From contig NZ_CP063169.1 in assembly GCF_014960965.1 (NCBI RefSeq), forward strand, positions 1,025,581-1,089,580: DNA of 64,000 nt, given 5' to 3'. How positions within the stretch are numbered: the stretch's first letter is position 1; every line of letters begins with the position of its first letter. Positions 1,113-8,439 of the stretch are shown here, piece by piece. This DNA is from Ruania alkalisoli. GTDB taxonomy: Bacteria > Actinomycetota > Actinomycetes > Actinomycetales > Beutenbergiaceae. Below the pieces are notes generated by a model that saw only the letters and a list, made by a program, of their open reading frames with translations, ran no database searches and was not told where the DNA came from. The translations under genes and the position numbers were made by a program.

Positions 1113-1561
1113 CGTCTCCTCGTTCCGACGGCGTCCTCGGCCAGCCGCAGCGCTCGAGCGGTCATCAGGTGCAGGGCGGGGGCCAGGAGCGGGTGCAGCA
1201 GGCGCAGCGGTCCAGCCAGGTGAACGTCTTCGGTCCAGTCCACACGGCACGTTCGGGGACCCAGCGGGGTGACCTGGATCGTGGCCGAGCCCAGCAGCAC
1301 CGGCCCGACTTTCTCGAGAGTGGCCACGCCTGGGCGGGGGTGAGGTGCGCCGTCGGGAGGGTCTGCCCGGGTGACCAGCATGACGTCTCGGAACCTCCGG
1401 CCGGTCACGGCCACGATCGTGTCACCGACCTGGGCCGGGCCGGGGCGGGCGGTGATGCGGGTGAACGGGATCAGCGACTCGTGCAGTGGGAGCGTTGTCA
1501 GGCGGTCGAAGACGACGGTCGCGGACCCGGGGAGTACCCGGGAGGCAGTGGTGCAGGTCAC
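1109..1561 (-). CDS. SRPBCC-fold (polyketide cyclase/START-like) protein
   Basis: A 150-aa protein with the length and pattern of a single SRPBCC domain: an N-terminal strand with VLPGSATVVFDRLTTLPLHESLIPFTRI broken by charged turns, a central beta-rich part (TIQVTPLGPRTCRVDWTED), and a C-terminal amphipathic helix (LAPALHLMTARALRLAEDAV). Such proteins bind hydrophobic ligands. The ligand here cannot be told from sequence. No signal peptide or membrane segment is present. It starts with GTG and its TGA overlaps the rocD ATG in an ATGA, which places it first in a two-gene unit with rocD. Whether it has any role in ornithine metabolism is unknown; the coupling may only reflect a shared promoter. 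Confidence 0.7.
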   Translation of the reverse strand: MTCTTASRVLPGSATVVFDRLTTLPLHESLIPFTRITARPGPAQVGDTIVAVTGRRFRDVMLVTRADPPDGAPHPRPGVATLEKVGPVLLGSATIQVTPLGPRTCRVDWTEDVHLAGPLRLLHPLLAPALHLMTARALRLAEDAVGTRRR

Positions 1562-1646
1562 CGGGCTACGGTCCCACGGCCGGCGTCGGACCGCGAGAGC
1601 GAGTTTCGCGCGCTGGCACGCGGGCGAGGTAGGGTTTCGGTGGTCC

Positions 1647-1719
1647 GCCCCCGTAGCTCAGGGGATAGAGCAACCGCCTCCTAAGCGGTAGGTCGCGCGT
1701 TCGAATCGCGCCGGGGGCA
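1647..1719 (+). tRNA. tRNA-Arg (anticodon CCT)
   Basis: Cloverleaf by eye: acceptor GCCCCCG/CGGGGGC, D arm GCTC...GAGC, anticodon stem ACCGC/GCGGT with loop CTCCTAA, and T arm GCGCG/CGCGC with loop TTCGAAT. The discriminator is A, and the next bases are CCG, so CCA is not fully encoded. The anticodon CCT reads AGG. The 3' end is duplicated downstream. Confidence 0.95.
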
Positions 1720-1877
1720 CCGAGGCGCTTGCGCCGTGTGCCCACGCGGGATTCGGGAGGAGCGTAGCGACGGTTCGCGCCGGGGGCACCGAGGCGCTTG
1801 CGCCGTGTGCCCACGCGGGATTCGCCGAGGGGCGTAGCGACGGTTCGCGCCGGGGGCACCGAGGCGCTTGGTGCGGC
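1709..1877 (+). repeat. Tandem 69/70-bp repeats carrying the tRNA-Arg 3' end
   Basis: The last 11 bases of the tRNA plus about 58 bases downstream recur at 1778 and again, truncated, at 1848. The first two units each hold a nested hairpin (GGGCAC/GTGCCC outside, GGCGC/GCGCC inside) at 1715-1743 and 1784-1812. The third is cut so that GCACC pairs with GGTGC just before the DUF2254 start. The hairpins could act as terminator or processing signals for the tRNA, but no T-tract follows. Confidence 0.85.
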
Positions 1878-1888
1878 ATGATGGCCCG

Positions 1889-3223
1889 ATGGCTGGACCA
1901 CGACCCTCCCCGGACGTGCACCGCGTGACGCCGATGGGGGTGCCCGCGATCCGGGCGGCCGGACCCTGGGCCAGGCTGTGGCAACCGTTCTGGGCGGTTC
2001 CGCTCGCGATCTGCCTGGCGGCCGTGCTCCTCGGCGCGGCGATGCCTGAGATCGAGGGCGCGTTCGCAGGTTCTTTGCCGCAGATCTTCGATGGTGGCCC
2101 CGAGGGTGCCCGCAGCGTGCTCAGCACGATCGCCAGCGCGATGATCTCCGTGACTGGTCTGGTGTTCTCGATCACGATGGTGGTGCTGCAGCTGGCGAGC
2201 AGTCAGTTCAGTCCCCGGGTGCTCGGCAACTTCCTGCACAGCAGGGTCACCCAGATCACGCTCGGGGTGTTCGCGGCCTCGTTCATCTTCTCCCTCACGG
2301 TGCTGCGTGCGGTGCGCAACGCTGATGGTGACCAGGAAGCGTTCGTGCCGCAGATCTCCGTAGGTCTGGCGCTGCTGCTGGTGGGGCTGAGCCTGATCTC
2401 GTTGATCGCCTTCATCCGCGAGATCACCACCGCGATCCAGGTCTCACAGGTGATCTCCGATATCGGGGACACCACCGTACGGTTGGTGGAAGGGATGCGG
2501 CCCGAGCCGACGGGGGAGGACCAGCACGTCACCGGCAAGTACGCCGAGCCGGACGAGTCGGTGACCTGGGCGCCCGACCCCGACCAGCCCCGGCACCCGG
2601 TGCACATGGGCTCACGGCACGGCCACCTGGTCTCCATCGACTACGCCATGCTGCTCGCGATTGCGACCGAGTTCGATGTGATCGTGGCGTGCGAGATCGC
2701 CGTGGGTGACTTCCGCGCCGAACAGCAGCCGCTCGCCACCATCTGGGGCAGGTCAGTGGACTCGGCTGGCGGCGATGAGGTCACGGCCGCCGAGAACCGG
2801 GTGCGGTCAGCGTTCGCGTTCGCCACCGAGCGCAGCATGCTCCAGGACCCGGCGTTCGGGATCCGCCAGCTGGTCGACATCGCCGAACGCGCCCTCTCGC
2901 CCGGGATCAACGACCCCACGACGGCCGTTCAGGTGATCGACGAACTTCACCGGATCCTGCGCCCGCTCGTTCAGCAGCCGGACGCCCGCCCGTACATCAC
3001 CGATGGCGACGGCACACTGCGTGTGGTGCACGCGCCTCCTGATGTGGAGACCCTGCTGCGCCTTGCCGTGAGCGAGATCGTCCACTACGGCTCCGGCTCC
3101 GTGCAGGTTCCTACCCGGATGCGCGCCATGCTGGATGACCTGGTGGCCATCTGCCGTGTCGAGCACAGGCCCGCCGTGGAGGATCTCGTTCGACAGCTCG
3201 ACCCCTCTGAGGCGCCCCGGTGA
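1889..3223 (+). CDS. DUF2254 family membrane protein
   Basis: A 444-aa predicted inner-membrane protein of the DUF2254 family, whose function is not established. Four hydrophobic segments lie in the N-terminal half: around FWAVPLAICLAAVLLGAA, VLSTIASAMISVTGLVFSIT, TLGVFAASFIFSLTVL and ISVGLALLLVGLSLISLIAF. A soluble C-terminal half includes the conserved stretch RSMLQDPAFGIRQLVDIAER and SPGINDPTTA. The ATG at 1889 begins MAGPRPSPDV. A TTG 21 bases upstream is in frame but lies inside the tRNA-derived repeat, so it is less likely. The gene stands alone between the tRNA repeats and the helicase-like gene. Confidence 0.88.
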   Translation: MAGPRPSPDVHRVTPMGVPAIRAAGPWARLWQPFWAVPLAICLAAVLLGAAMPEIEGAFAGSLPQIFDGGPEGARSVLSTIASAMISVTGLVFSITMVVLQLASSQFSPRVLGNFLHSRVTQITLGVFAASFIFSLTVLRAVRNADGDQEAFVPQISVGLALLLVGLSLISLIAFIREITTAIQVSQVISDIGDTTVRLVEGMRPEPTGEDQHVTGKYAEPDESVTWAPDPDQPRHPVHMGSRHGHLVSIDYAMLLAIATEFDVIVACEIAVGDFRAEQQPLATIWGRSVDSAGGDEVTAAENRVRSAFAFATERSMLQDPAFGIRQLVDIAERALSPGINDPTTAVQVIDELHRILRPLVQQPDARPYITDGDGTLRVVHAPPDVETLLRLAVSEIVHYGSGSVQVPTRMRAMLDDLVAICRVEHRPAVEDLVRQLDPSEAPR

Positions 3224-3299
3224 CCGGTGCGCATCACGAGATGGGTGTTCAGCGGCGGGTCAGCGCGGAGAACGCACGCATTCTCGTTAGCGTGGGTGC

Positions 3300-6200
3300 G
3301 TGAGGTCCGTCCGCCTGCCCCGACCCGGTGGCACCCGTGCCACCGATGAGCCGACCCCAGACACGGGCCGGCTGGACGCCTCAGAACCGCACGACACCCC
3401 GCGCGAGCGGGAGGTCGCCGCAGCCGTGGCCACCTGGCGTGGCAGGCTCACCGACCTCGTCGGAGGCAGCGCGCTGTGGGATGTCAATGCTCTGGGGGAG
3501 GCGATGGTGGAGCTCACCGCCGCCCACCCCTCCGGTATCGCCCAGCTGTACGCCGGTCGCAGCACCCCGCTGAGCAATCTGGTGCGAGAAGGATCGGCTC
3601 TCACCCAAGCGCGCCGCCGCGCGCGGGTCGTGGTGGCCCGTACCGAGGAACTCGCGCAACGGTTCGGGGTCGCCCCCACCTATGTGGCCATGGGCGTGGC
3701 GACATGGGAGTCGACCACTGCAGGGGAGCCTGCCGGTGCGGATGCACGCCCGTTGGACGCGGACGACCTGGCGCACCATCGCACGGGTGACGACGTCGAT
3801 CTGCTCGATCCTGGTTCGGTGCCCGCGGTCCCGGCGCTGACCGCCGAGCCGGAGGACATCGTCCCGCGGACGGTGCACGCGCCGGTGTTGCTGCGTCCGG
3901 TCCGGGTGCGGGTGCACGGATCCGATGCCGAGATCGACCTGGAGATCGACCCGGCGGTGGAAGTGAACAGCCTCCTCGTGCGGGACCTGCGGGCCGCCGG
4001 TATTGATGTGGATGCCTCCGAAGTTGCGGGATCGACCACGACTGCGCATGGATTCTCCCCACGCCCAGCGCTGGAGCGGATCGCCGAGCTGGGCGCCGCG
4101 CTGCCAGGGTTCCGTCTCGAGCCCCGCATCGTGGTCGGAGCCTTCGTACACCCTGGGCAGGCGCTGGCCGACGATCTGGACACCCAGCAGCGTGAGCTGG
4201 CCACCCACGACGTGGTCGCGGCGCTCGCCGGCGTGGAGGGTGCGCGGGCGGCTGTGGCGACCGATGTGCCCGAGCCCGATCCCCAGGATCGTGATCCGGA
4301 CGACGAAGCCGGGGTAGGCGATCTCGATCCCGGCCAGCAGGACGTGCTCGACGCTGTCGCTGCGGGCGGTCACCTGCTCGTCGACGCTCCGCCGGGGACC
4401 GACAGTGCCGCCACGATGGCCGCCGTCGTCGCACAGGCTGCCGCCGACGGGCGTCGCGTGCTCTACGTGCCCGGGACCCGGCGCGCGGGCCAGGCGCTCC
4501 TGGACGCGATGCGTGGCGCCGGGGTGAGCGACCTGGCGCTGGATCTGAGCAACGACCCACGCTGGCCGAGCACCGCGGCGGCACGCCTGATCGACGGGCT
4601 GAACCCGCCCGAGCCGGAGATCGATACCGAGACCCGTGCTGCCGAGCGTGCCCGGCTGCGCCAGGCGCGACGGGATCTCAGCGACCACTTGACCGCGCTG
4701 CACGCGGCTCGGGCGCCGTGGGATGCCTCCGCCTACGATGCGCTGCAGGCGCTCGCCGAGCTCACCTCCCAGCGTCCCGGCCCGCGCACTCAGGTGCGGG
4801 TGGCCACGCGGGCGGTACGGTCCATGTCCGAGCAGGATCGCCAGCACGCCCGCGAAGAGCTGGCCCGGGCTGCTGCACTCGGCGCGTTCCGCCTGCGTGC
4901 GGCCGACACCGCCTGGTTCGGTGCGCGACTGTCATCCGCGGAGCACGCCACCGCCACCCTCGAGCGTGTGCGCGAGTTGGGTGAGTTGTTGCCCGACCTC
5001 CGCGCCCAGATCGCCCGGACTGCTGCTCAGACCGGGCTCGACGAGGCGACCACCCTGGAGCAGTGGTCCGAACAGTTGCTGCTGCTGGACGGTATCCGTT
5101 CCTCCCTGGACGTCTTCACCCCGCAGGTGTTCGAACGGTCGGCCTCGGACATGGTTGCCGCGACCGGAACACGTTCCTGGCGGGCGCAGCACGATATCGC
5201 CATGGGCTGGGGTGTGCGGCGCCGCCTGAAGAAGCAGGCGCGCGACCTGCTACGCCCCGGCGGGTCCGTCGGCGACCTCCACGCCGAACTCATCGACGTC
5301 CAGGAGCGGCGCGATCTGTGGCGCCGGCACTGTGCAGGTGGCGGATGGCCCCGGCTGCCTGAGGGCATGCCCGAGATCACCCGGACCGAGGCGAAGATTG
5401 CCGGCCTCGTGAACGACCTCGATCCGGTCCTGGGCGCCACGCTCGGCGGACGCACCCTCACCGAGGTGCCGCTGGAGGAACTGGCCACCAGGGTCGCTCG
5501 TCTGGGCGCTGACGACGTCGCGCTGCGGCAGCTTCCCGAACGTGCCGCCGTCTTGGCGCACCTGAGCGACCTGGGCCTGGACGATCTGCTCGCCGACCTC
5601 ACCCAGCGCCGGGTGCCCACCTCGCTCGTGGGTGCGGAGTTCGACCTCGCCTGGTGGTCGAGCGTGCTCGAGGAGATTCTCGCCGAGGACCCGGCATTGG
5701 CAGGACTGGAGACGTCCGTGCTGGAGGAGGCCGCCCTCACCCTGCGGGAGGCCGACCGGCAGCAGACCGTCTCCCTGACGGCGCCTGCGCTCGCGAAGGT
5801 GCGTGAGCGGGTCCGCTCCGCCATCGCTCACGACCGGACACGGGCACAAGAGTTCTACCGCGCTGTGCGGGGCGGAGCCACCGACCTGAAAGACCTGCTG
5901 GAGACCTACGGCGAGGTCGCCTGGGCGCCGCGGCCGGTGTGGGTGGTTCCGCCGATGGTGGTGCCGCAGGTGCTGCCGCCGGAGCGCACCGTCGACCTGG
6001 TGGTCCTCGATGCCGTGCAGCACGTGCCCACCGAGCAGGTGATCTCGGCGATCGCGCGATCTCAGCAGGTTGTCGTGGTCGGTGACTCGCGCCGCGGTGG
6101 TGCCGGTGGCGTGATCCCGCAGCTGTCGTGGCTGCCGACCTTGGCCCTGCACCCCGGCCGCGGCCGGCAGGACCCCGACGTCGCAGCGTTCCTGTCCGCT

Positions 6201-7703
6201 CACGGCTACGACGAGGCCGTCCGTCCACTTCCGACCCCTCCCGGTCACAGTGGCGTGCGTCTCGAACTCGTGGACGGCACCGGGATGCCGGTGCCGGGTG
6301 CCGATGTGGTCGAGAGTGTGCAGGCTGAGGTGGACCGGGTGGTCGACCTGGTGATCGACCATGCACTGAGCCGGCCGGAAGAGTCCCTGGCGGTCGTCGC
6401 ACTCAACACCCGTCACGCGGACCGGGTGCGTGAGTCGGTGCTCTCGGTCGCCGCGGGCAGCGCCAGCATGTCGGCGTTCTTCGACCAGTCCCGCCCGGAG
6501 GCGTTCACCGTGGTGGACGTGGAGTCCGCGGCAGGGATGCGACGTGACGCCATCGTGCTTACGCTCGGGTTCGGCAAGACCCCGCACGGCCGGGTACTGC
6601 ACCGGTTCGGTGCCATCTCCGGTCCCGACGGCGTCGCTTTCCTCGTGGATGCCCTGGACGCCGTCCGTAGCCGGTTGACAGTGGTCAGCTGCCTGGCTCC
6701 GGAGGACCTCGATCCGGAGCGGGTGCGTGCCCCTGGCTCGCAGATGCTCCGGGACCTGCTGCAGATGGCCTCAGCCGGGCAGATGAAGCGCCCGCAGGAG
6801 GACCCTGAGCTCGGGGTGGACCGGCTGCTGCTCGACCTGGCCGAGCGGTTGTGGCGGCGCGGGCTCACGGTAGTGCCGCGCTACGGCATCCCCGGCGGGA
6901 TCCGCATCCCGCTGGCGGTCGGGCACCCAGCGCTGCCCGAGGAGCTGCTGCTGGCCGTGCTCACCGACGATGAGGACTACATGGCTGAGCCCAGTCTGCG
7001 TCGCCGTGACCGGCACTGGGTGGAACGCCTCGTCGATCGCGGGTGGAAGGTGTGCACCGTGTACTCTTCCGCCGTCTTCATGGATCCGCAAGGTGAGGCC
7101 GATAAGATCGCCGACGAGCTCGAGCTGATCGTCTCCGAACGCACCGGGATCCCGCCCGAGGAACGGCCCGCGCCTCCGCTCCGCTGGGACGAGTCCAGCG
7201 ACGAGGGCAGTTCCCCGCTGGCAACCACCTCGGCAGCAGCACCCTCGGTGGCGACCACGTCCGCGGTGACCACCTCGGCCAGGGGTGTGGCGATGGTCGG
7301 CCAGGCCGGAGCGTCAGAGGTGCATGCGCACGTGCAGGCAGGTATTGCCTCCGGAGGATCCGAGCACGCGGACGACAGCGCAGACGAACGTGGTGAACGC
7401 CCCGACGTTCCCGCAGGGCAACCGTTGAGCCGCTATGGCGACGACGAGCTCGACTCCTTGGTGACGTGGATCTCCTCCGACGGGACACCGCGGACGGTTG
7501 AGGAGTTGCGGGAGGAGCTGCGCAGCGAGCTGGGGATCGCCAAGCGCGGCACCCACGTCGATGCCGTGCTCTCGGCGGCGGTGCGCCGATCCGGGCTCGC
7601 CCGGGAGGAGTCAGCCGGTGGCGAGCAGGATGCCGTGGGTGAGCCGGCTCAGGACTCGAAGACCGGCGACGAGTCGGTTCGGCACCGCGAGGGCAAGGAC
7701 TGA
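3300..7703 (+). CDS. DUF4011 / degenerate SF1 helicase / MTES_1575-type endonuclease fusion
   Basis: A 1,467-aa protein with three recognisable parts. Residues about 40-140 resemble DUF4011 (AAHPSGIAQLYAGR, LSNLVREGSALTQARRRARV). Residues about 340-1140 follow an SF1 helicase plan, and residues about 1173-1275 resemble the MTES_1575 PD-(D/E)XK nuclease (ERLWRRGLTVVPRYG, DRHWVERLVDRGWKVCTVYS). A Ser/Thr/Ala-rich linker and a small C-terminal domain follow. The order resembles single-gene Hhe defence proteins (DUF4011-helicase-Vsr). The helicase motifs are eroded. The P-loop reads APPGTDSA at 363-370, with serine where lysine is expected. Motif II reads DAVQ at 904-907 instead of DExQ, and motif VI lacks the arginine-finger pattern. 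ATP hydrolysis therefore looks unlikely, and DNA binding or a scaffold role is possible. The GTG at 3300 has a weak ribosome site. Confidence 0.82.
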   Translation: MRSVRLPRPGGTRATDEPTPDTGRLDASEPHDTPREREVAAAVATWRGRLTDLVGGSALWDVNALGEAMVELTAAHPSGIAQLYAGRSTPLSNLVREGSALTQARRRARVVVARTEELAQRFGVAPTYVAMGVATWESTTAGEPAGADARPLDADDLAHHRTGDDVDLLDPGSVPAVPALTAEPEDIVPRTVHAPVLLRPVRVRVHGSDAEIDLEIDPAVEVNSLLVRDLRAAGIDVDASEVAGSTTTAHGFSPRPALERIAELGAALPGFRLEPRIVVGAFVHPGQALADDLDTQQRELATHDVVAALAGVEGARAAVATDVPEPDPQDRDPDDEAGVGDLDPGQQDVLDAVAAGGHLLVDAPPGTDSAATMAAVVAQAAADGRRVLYVPGTRRAGQALLDAMRGAGVSDLALDLSNDPRWPSTAAARLIDGLNPPEPEIDTETRAAERARLRQARRDLSDHLTALHAARAPWDASAYDALQALAELTSQRPGPRTQVRVATRAVRSMSEQDRQHAREELARAAALGAFRLRAADTAWFGARLSSAEHATATLERVRELGELLPDLRAQIARTAAQTGLDEATTLEQWSEQLLLLDGIRSSLDVFTPQVFERSASDMVAATGTRSWRAQHDIAMGWGVRRRLKKQARDLLRPGGSVGDLHAELIDVQERRDLWRRHCAGGGWPRLPEGMPEITRTEAKIAGLVNDLDPVLGATLGGRTLTEVPLEELATRVARLGADDVALRQLPERAAVLAHLSDLGLDDLLADLTQRRVPTSLVGAEFDLAWWSSVLEEILAEDPALAGLETSVLEEAALTLREADRQQTVSLTAPALAKVRERVRSAIAHDRTRAQEFYRAVRGGATDLKDLLETYGEVAWAPRPVWVVPPMVVPQVLPPERTVDLVVLDAVQHVPTEQVISAIARSQQVVVVGDSRRGGAGGVIPQLSWLPTLALHPGRGRQDPDVAAFLSAHGYDEAVRPLPTPPGHSGVRLELVDGTGMPVPGADVVESVQAEVDRVVDLVIDHALSRPEESLAVVALNTRHADRVRESVLSVAAGSASMSAFFDQSRPEAFTVVDVESAAGMRRDAIVLTLGFGKTPHGRVLHRFGAISGPDGVAFLVDALDAVRSRLTVVSCLAPEDLDPERVRAPGSQMLRDLLQMASAGQMKRPQEDPELGVDRLLLDLAERLWRRGLTVVPRYGIPGGIRIPLAVGHPALPEELLLAVLTDDEDYMAEPSLRRRDRHWVERLVDRGWKVCTVYSSAVFMDPQGEADKIADELELIVSERTGIPPEERPAPPLRWDESSDEGSSPLATTSAAAPSVATTSAVTTSARGVAMVGQAGASEVHAHVQAGIASGGSEHADDSADERGERPDVPAGQPLSRYGDDELDSLVTWISSDGTPRTVEELREELRSELGIAKRGTHVDAVLSAAVRRSGLAREESAGGEQDAVGEPAQDSKTGDESVRHREGKD

Positions 7704-8025: not shown

Positions 8026-8439
8026 TCAGGAGGTCTTCGTCGCCAGCAGGTCCCGGATCTCGGTGAGGAGCGCGACGTCCTCGGCGGGGGCGACCGGTTC
8101 CGGTTCCTCGCCGCGGGCGCGCCGCTCGGCGAGCTTGTTCATCGGCACCACCACGACGAAGTAGATGGCGGCGGCGACCAGGAGGAAGTTGATCAGTGCC
8201 GTCAGGACGGCACCGATCAGGATCTCGGTCGGTTCAGTGCCGGTCTGCTCCGCCGTGCGCATGGTGATGACCCAGATGCGGTCGAGGTTCGGCTGACCGA
8301 AGATCCCACCAATGAGCGGGTTGAGCACGTTCTCGACGAGCGCCGTGACCACGGCACCGAAAGCGGCACCGATGACCACGCCGACGGCGAGGTCGACGAC
8401 GCTCCCGCGTGAGATGAAGTCCTTGAATCCCTGCAGCAT
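8026..8439 (-). CDS. mscL: Large-conductance mechanosensitive channel
   Basis: A 137-aa MscL subunit; the homopentamer opens under membrane tension on hypoosmotic shock and releases solutes. The start MLQGFKDFISRGSVVDLAVGVVIGAAFGAVV holds the N-terminal helix and TM1 with its Gly/Ala/Val-rich pore face. TM2 lies near LIGAVLTALINFLLVAAAIYFVVVVP. The tail LTEIRDLLATKTS is the cytoplasmic helix bundle. The length is normal for the family. It is preceded on the same strand by the SAF protein, 27 bp away. In mycobacteria mscL also lies near the Ruc, folate cyclo-ligase and galU genes, and the same neighbourhood is kept here. Confidence 0.96.
   Translation of the reverse strand: MLQGFKDFISRGSVVDLAVGVVIGAAFGAVVTALVENVLNPLIGGIFGQPNLDRIWVITMRTAEQTGTEPTEILIGAVLTALINFLLVAAAIYFVVVVPMNKLAERRARGEEPEPVAPAEDVALLTEIRDLLATKTS

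Follow-up and report, generated by a model that had tools for sequence, protein, structure and literature searches.

A putative helicase–nuclease double pseudoenzyme in Ruania alkalisoli and its relatives across one bacterial order

The gene, its defence-family relatives, and its locus

The window analysed here is a stretch of 64,000 nucleotides from Ruania alkalisoli (NZ_CP063169.1). An open reading frame at positions 3300–7703 of its plus strand, called with a GTG start, encodes a protein of 1467 amino acids that consists of a DUF4011-like head, an SF1 helicase region with dead catalytic motifs, a probably dead MTES_1575 domain, and a C-terminal segment. The MTES_1575 domain (PF18741; Vsr-like nuclease) occupies residues 1180–1274 (6837–7121) and is the sole Pfam family above its gathering score (45.4 versus 38.2 bits), in agreement with the C-terminal domain of this type proposed by a first-pass annotation made from the sequence letters. 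AAA_30 (19.6 versus 27) and AAA_19 (17.4 versus 25.1) lie under their Pfam cut-offs, and no PDB chain matches the protein by sequence at E up to 1. The first RecA-like domain (residues 342–470; 4323–4709) is placed by the structure model and its Dna2 and UPF1 matches, and the second (residues 1000–1135; 6297–6704) by alignment, model, and structure matches. DUF4011 (PF13195) gives no Pfam match in the window protein at E up to 1; the segment at residues 37–145 (3408–3734) is termed DUF4011-like from the orthologues L032 (29.3 bits) and L029 (42.0 bits), in which the family is detected above its gathering score of 22.2. The genome holds a single match to the 1467-residue protein, and a PF18741 search finds, besides this gene, three places in frames of 335–414 residues, one of them above the cut-off.

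The descent of the lineage from DUF4011–helicase–nuclease proteins is supported by sequence comparison. The window protein scores 336.1 bits against the PADLOC candidate model PDC-S37, 305.6 bits against ProA (NF058533; NCBIfam curated cut-off 1500), and 153.7 bits against Hhe (NF042953; cut-off 2000). Against the ProA profile, the intact orthologue L032 scores 777.5 bits, the paralogue L041 from the same genus 1394.6 bits, just as the window protein below the cut-off, and the paralogue L040 1656.4 bits, above it. The DUF4011, SF1 helicase, and MTES_1575 order of ProA and PDC-S37 is found in L032, L040, and L041; unlike these families, the window protein is shorter, has lost the helicase motifs and the nuclease Asp, lies in a core locus, and scores far under 1500. 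With Hhe it shares a DUF4011–helicase–nuclease ancestry, but it misses the Hhe cut-off and its ATP site is dead. As PDC-S37 matches the protein despite the lost helicase motifs, surveys of defence systems may wrongly include it, which constitutes an annotation trap. ProA-type paralogues (L040–L046; 1999–2336 residues) with intact helicase motifs are present in related genomes. The MTES_1575 protein of Microbacterium testaceum is described, in PMC3710099, as a HEPN domain fused with a transglutaminase, an SF-I helicase, a Vsr REase, and two wHTH domains. A core DUF4011 protein has a precedent in Pseudomonas aeruginosa, in which a DUF4011 gene that flanks a defence hotspot is present in every isolate, according to PMC10250203.

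The neighbourhood was compared across 33 loci, comprising the window and 32 others. The convergent neighbour mscL (8026–8439, minus strand) belongs to a cluster found in 24 of the 33, and the SAF cluster and the cluster of what we take to be 5-formyltetrahydrofolate cyclo-ligase each occur in 22. The mscL, SAF, acylase, and moeA neighbours are named by Pfam, and the name galU, like that of the cyclo-ligase, is presumed from the sequence. The intact orthologue L032 adjoins the mscL cluster as well (L072), so the position of the locus seems to be older than the decay described below. No constant co-transcribed partner is seen among the 33 neighbourhoods, as mscL is convergent and the genes upstream vary more. 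The gene that immediately precedes the 1467-residue frame on its strand encodes a DUF2254 membrane protein (1868–3223); among the 33, its cluster is labelled only in the window and in L050, so that this protein is not a general partner. Seven of the nine neighbours scanned with Pfam match non-defence families and two match nothing, with no defence-island features among them, and the locus is a conserved housekeeping one. A promoter and terminator scan found none of either, with 0.2 and 0.5 expected, and carries no information about this locus.

Helicase motifs, fold, and nuclease-like domain

The window protein lacks the catalytic motifs I, II, III, and VI of UPF1/Dna2-like SF1 helicases. In the alignment, the former Walker A reads APPGTDSA (residues 363–370; 4386–4409), motif II reads DAVQ (residues 904–907; 6009–6020), motif III reads GDSRR with the Gln lost (residues 928–932; 6081–6095), and motif VI reads VDALDAVRSR in place of a TRAR-containing stretch (residues 1116–1125; 6645–6674). 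These positions were followed through 81 rows, namely the window protein and the best 80 of 257 confirmed loci from named genomes, a set that is biased towards near relatives and partly drawn from the same genomes as the numbered sample genomes discussed below. The relatives come from Ruania, Occultella, Georgenia, Cellulomonas, Actinomyces, Oerskovia, Sanguibacter, Isoptericola, and other genera, and the nearest named one among the matches listed is Ruania rhizosphaerae (94% in the best segment). The P-loop Lys is absent in 81/81 rows, where the aligned position reads V, S, A, T, P, E, or I, and is directly preceded by Asp in 79/81; the motif II Glu is absent in 81/81 (A, S, or G), as is the first Arg of motif VI (A, S, V, or G). 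Two residues of Hhe- and ProA-type enzymes, the Lys of Walker A and the Glu of motif II, are thus missing from the window protein and from all 80 named relatives, so that neither a sequencing error nor a mutation confined to the window can account for the change. The Walker B Asp is retained in 78/81 rows, the motif III Asp in 81/81, and the PPG loop in most, and the second Arg of the TRAR stretch (R1123) is invariant in 15/15 rows.

The first-pass annotation had reported a P-loop without Lys, a motif II without Glu, and a motif VI without the Arg-finger pattern, and had proposed a pseudo-helicase lineage. These observations hold, with the refinement that motif VI has lost its first Arg and kept its second, and the substitutions are fixed throughout the aligned relatives. 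Homologues with intact GKT and DExQ motifs, which would have pointed to a local change, are found only in families other than that of the window, and neither among the 80 named relatives nor among the aligned loci of the same family.

The helicase fold itself is kept despite the lost motifs, as indicated by a confident model and its structural matches. The AlphaFold2 model of residues 186–1292, built from 52 sequences, has a pLDDT of 87.3 and a pTM of 0.72, and contains the two RecA-like lobes of the UPF1/Dna2-like SF1 fold. The best second-look PDB match is Dna2 (5ean; Z 18.0, rmsd 4.1, 412 residues aligned), tied with UPF1 (2xzo; Z 17.8, rmsd 4.1, 410 aligned) and IGHMBP2 (4b3g; Z 17.5, rmsd 3.8, 395 aligned), and the top Foldseek rows are chains of spliceosomal Aquarius. 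UPF1, Dna2, and IGHMBP2 are active ATPases of SF1; the window protein shares their fold, but is only 14–15% identical to them and has lost the motifs. The structural matches span model residues 7–977 and barely reach the nuclease-like domain, the fold of which is predicted from the Pfam match and the confidence of the model. A separate model of the head (residues 30–345) has a pLDDT of 83.5 and finds no match at E ≤ 0.001 in the PDB (best second-look Z 4.1) or in BFVD (top hit at E 0.032, a myovirus protein with an AAA domain), an absence of matches that does not demonstrate a new fold. Behind motif V, a loop reading GFGKTPHGR (residues 1090–1098; 6567–6593) within the second RecA-like domain is well conserved in dead copies and reads GFGRTPHGR in the intact orthologue L032; it is possibly a nucleic-acid contact.

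The nuclease-like domain has changed at the acidic positions of the intact orthologues as well. The first former nuclease acid lies in RIPLAVGH (6903–6926), where L032 reads RIDLAVG, and the second in LAVLTDD (6951–6971), where L032 reads VAVESDG; the Asp of the intact orthologues is Pro (P1204) in 81/81 rows and their Glu is Leu (L1221) in 81/81, which rules out a nuclease that uses these two residues. The ProA-type paralogues L040–L046 also have Leu at the Glu position in 7/7 cases, yet keep the nuclease Asp and the helicase motifs. As the Leu is common to otherwise intact paralogues, this change alone is no proof of a dead nuclease, and the Asp-to-Pro substitution is the stronger sign. From these replacements, the MTES_1575 domain of the window protein is probably catalytically dead. 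Of the overall interpretation in the first-pass annotation, the pseudo-helicase with fixed substitutions stands, whereas its suggestion that nuclease function perhaps persists is probably wrong, with the reservation imposed by the Leu of the paralogues; its observation was right but understated, as the nuclease acids of the intact orthologues are gone too.

Orthologues, order of loss, and selection

The orthologue L032, from the sampled genome G027, carries the full motif set and exceeds the Pfam cut-offs for DUF4011, AAA_11, AAA_12, and MTES_1575. Motif states were scored in 107 aligned orthologue rows, a few of them partial, that comprise 35 representatives (27 from sampled genomes and the window, 8 from named genomes), 65 matched loci or regions, drawn from part of the matching genomes, and 7 rows from the class; left out beforehand were 5 duplicates, a single short fragment, and 7 rows that are ProA-type or partial (L040–L043 and L244–L246). 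The P-loop Lys is kept in 6 of the 107 rows, five from within the order (L032, L165, L166, L167, and L174) and one from outside it (L234). In all six, the motif II Glu and the Arg of motifs IV and VI are kept and both nuclease positions hold an acid; one of the six lacks the motif III Gln. Among the 101 rows without Lys, the motif VI Arg is kept in 45, the motif IV Arg in 43, the Gln in 3, and the motif II Glu in 2, with an acid at the nuclease Glu position in 37 and at the nuclease Asp position in 24; 48 retain none of the scored residues, where gaps count as loss and all 48 have a gap where the motif III Gln would stand. Since several families without the Lys still keep motif VI and the nuclease acids, the decay was stepwise, and the alignment shows that the ATP site was lost first and motif VI and the nuclease acids later.

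The gene trees are compatible with between one and four origins of this decay. In the FastTree tree of 100 rows, the fully eroded families f1, f3, f4, f9, f10, and f20 form one clade with a support of 1.0 and family f8 is not a single clade; the Lys-less rows of f17 are placed differently by the trees without and with the class rows, both of which left out 4 fragment rows. The IQ-TREE tree of 41 chosen rows, from which the motif columns were left out, separates f5 and f17 (5 rows with Lys, 3 without; support 98) from 25 rows drawn from the remaining sampled families, none of which has the Lys (support 99). This tree needs 4 state changes of the Lys, of which the starred branches force 2, and the AU test does not reject one origin of the Lys loss, with p 0.295 when all 32 Lys-less rows are taken and 0.329 when only the 28 from within the order are. 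Among 92 genomes of the class beyond the order, 9 match at E ≤ 1e-70, and 7 of the matches are full-length (five from f38 and one each from f25 and f45). The f38 and f25 orthologues L235–L240 (G201, G120, G133, G171, G154, and G187) read Arg at the P-loop Lys (GTGRT or GTGRS) and keep the nuclease Glu, which perhaps represents a separate loss of the ATP site. The f45 orthologue L234 (G158) has intact ATP motifs and an in-frame TGA within the match.

Within the order, the L032 query finds a match, defined as any match at E ≤ 1e-30, in 97 of 99 genomes; the sole match listed for G052 lies in a frame of 2106 residues, as long as a ProA-type paralogue, which may make 96 the fairer count. No match was found in G076 (62% complete) or G089 (92% complete). 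Nine listed matches contain a stop inside the matched stretch. In seven of those genomes (L020, L186, L187, L197, L224, L230, and L232), the open reading frame piece runs through the nuclease segment, which places the stop behind it; the remaining two are G038 and G044. The 0.8-Mb genome G073, which is 99% complete, keeps a fully eroded copy of 1205 residues (L222). The gene is best explained as a mainly vertically inherited core gene of its order.

As judged from substitution rates, the protein is held under purifying selection. Whole-gene dN/dS values in five same-genus pairs are 0.104, 0.129, 0.167, 0.142, and 0.212, and the neighbour genes in three of those genomes range over 0.080–0.381, with MoeA, GalU, and the acylase at 0.080–0.173. 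The DUF4011-like head (pN/pS 0.01–0.29 in the five pairs) and the second RecA-like lobe (0.04–0.21) are among the tightest segments. All 80 named loci consist of a single open reading frame piece, counted as pieces of at least 150 residues matching at E ≤ 1e-20. A young pseudogene was rejected on these single pieces and on the low whole-gene dN/dS. The same-genus copy L047 in G003 is frameshifted by one extra base in a G run and falls into the pieces 1492–3753 and 3542–6082. As both halves stay conserved, the frameshift is either recent or an assembly error; it counts against strict essentiality, and may be such an error.

A proposed RecC-like scaffold and its alternatives

Near-universal retention under strong selection points to a core role independent of catalysis. 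The reading that we favour, and hold to be somewhat probable, is that of an ancient double pseudoenzyme, a core gene product of its order that would work in a RecC-like manner as an ATP-independent scaffold for nucleic acid or protein. The helicase domains of RecC are inactive as well. Its nuclease-like domain, devoid of catalytic features, forms a hoop for single-stranded DNA, as described in PMC1185551. The window protein likewise carries, on a single chain, a helicase region and a nuclease domain that both lack catalytic residues, the nuclease domain being identified by Pfam only; unlike it, RecC sits in the RecBCD complex, and no operon partner is seen for the window gene. The likeness concerns the way of working, and no homology is claimed. 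Function and partner are inferred. A dead SF1 helicase combined with a dead MTES_1575 domain would bind DNA (or RNA) and a partner without ATP. From fold and analogy, the two RecA-like lobes are predicted to build a channel or clamp together with the nuclease-like domain, and contact with the partner would fall to the conserved DUF4011-like head, in a manner much like that of RecC within RecBCD. The task would likely be a housekeeping nucleic-acid transaction, such as repair, replication, or transcription, rather than ATP-driven phage restriction.

In a second bacterial precedent, PriA of Deinococcus radiodurans, ATP hydrolysis and unwinding are lost, DNA binding is kept, and there is evidence for contact with DnaB, according to PMC4504706. 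It is a candidate parallel to the window protein as a bacterial helicase that went on without ATP hydrolysis, and differs in belonging to the PriA lineage. For the dead nuclease domain, we know of no counterpart in D. radiodurans PriA. A more far-reaching version of the scaffold reading is put forward tentatively. The protein would be a core, perhaps essential, nucleic-acid machine of the whole order, a domesticated defence enzyme from the ProA/Hhe side (about 1200–1700 residues) turned into a RecC-like scaffold, which lost both centres stepwise, the ATP site first and possibly in parallel, with intact, half-dead, and dead orthologues persisting side by side.

Pseudohelicases and RecC-like dead pairs are already known. 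What would be new is a double pseudoenzyme of ProA/Hhe descent that is core to an entire order and has left its series of decay stages intact, a lineage for which no prior description was found in the open literature searched. The coexistence of intact, half-dead, and fully dead orthologues in one order makes the order of loss readable and biochemically testable, and the near-universal presence of a protein of about 1400 residues, for which the searches found no assigned function in this order, marks a real knowledge gap.

The alternative that survives best is a working defence protein, in which the pseudoenzyme serves as a phage sensor or as a scaffold that recruits a nuclease or ATPase in trans. 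The ancestry among anti-phage families, visible in the PDC-S37, ProA, and Hhe scores given above, and the presence of the ProA-type paralogue L041 in the same genus speak for it. However, the gene is retained almost throughout the order and even in a 0.8-Mb genome, its locus is a conserved housekeeping one with non-defence or unmatched Pfam-scanned neighbours, and its dN/dS falls within the range of neighbouring genes, unlike what an accessory defence gene would show in its distribution; such a role is thus considered unlikely, and the Hhe phage-defence framing of the first-pass annotation, with a score far below the curated cut-off, is not supported.

A nuclease-like domain that still cuts through a moved or divergent centre, next to a dead ATP site, is rather improbable. 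The domain has the highest mean conservation of all segments (0.71), and G1208, H1209, P1210, D1223, D1224, and R1234/R1236/R1238 are at least 98% fixed among the 81 rows, with D1223 fixed in 81/81; the newly fixed D1223, H1209, and D1224 could make up a moved active site. The Leu shared with the ProA-type paralogues, including L040, which exceeds the ProA cut-off, raises this alternative and lowers the double-pseudoenzyme reading. Against it, the Asp common to the intact orthologues and the ProA-type paralogues is Pro in every row, and part of the same-family copies read TDT rather than TDD.

A gene decaying towards loss under relaxed selection would fit the stepwise erosion, the frameshifted G003 copy, and the loosening of the former II–III segment, where pN/pS rises from 0.08 and 0.20 in the two closest pairs to 0.36–0.51 in the other three, but the low whole-gene dN/dS, the unbroken named loci, and the order-wide matches already disfavour it and leave it very improbable. 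An atypical working ATPase, in which other residues have taken over the roles of the Lys and Glu, is scarcely credible even with the remaining PPG loop, Walker B Asp, motif III Asp, and R1123, since the Lys, the Glu, and the first Arg of motif VI are all gone together and the acidic P-loop Asp in 79/81 rows should repel phosphate. For the double pseudoenzyme, the mostly kept PPG loop and Walker B Asp make nucleotide binding without hydrolysis possible.
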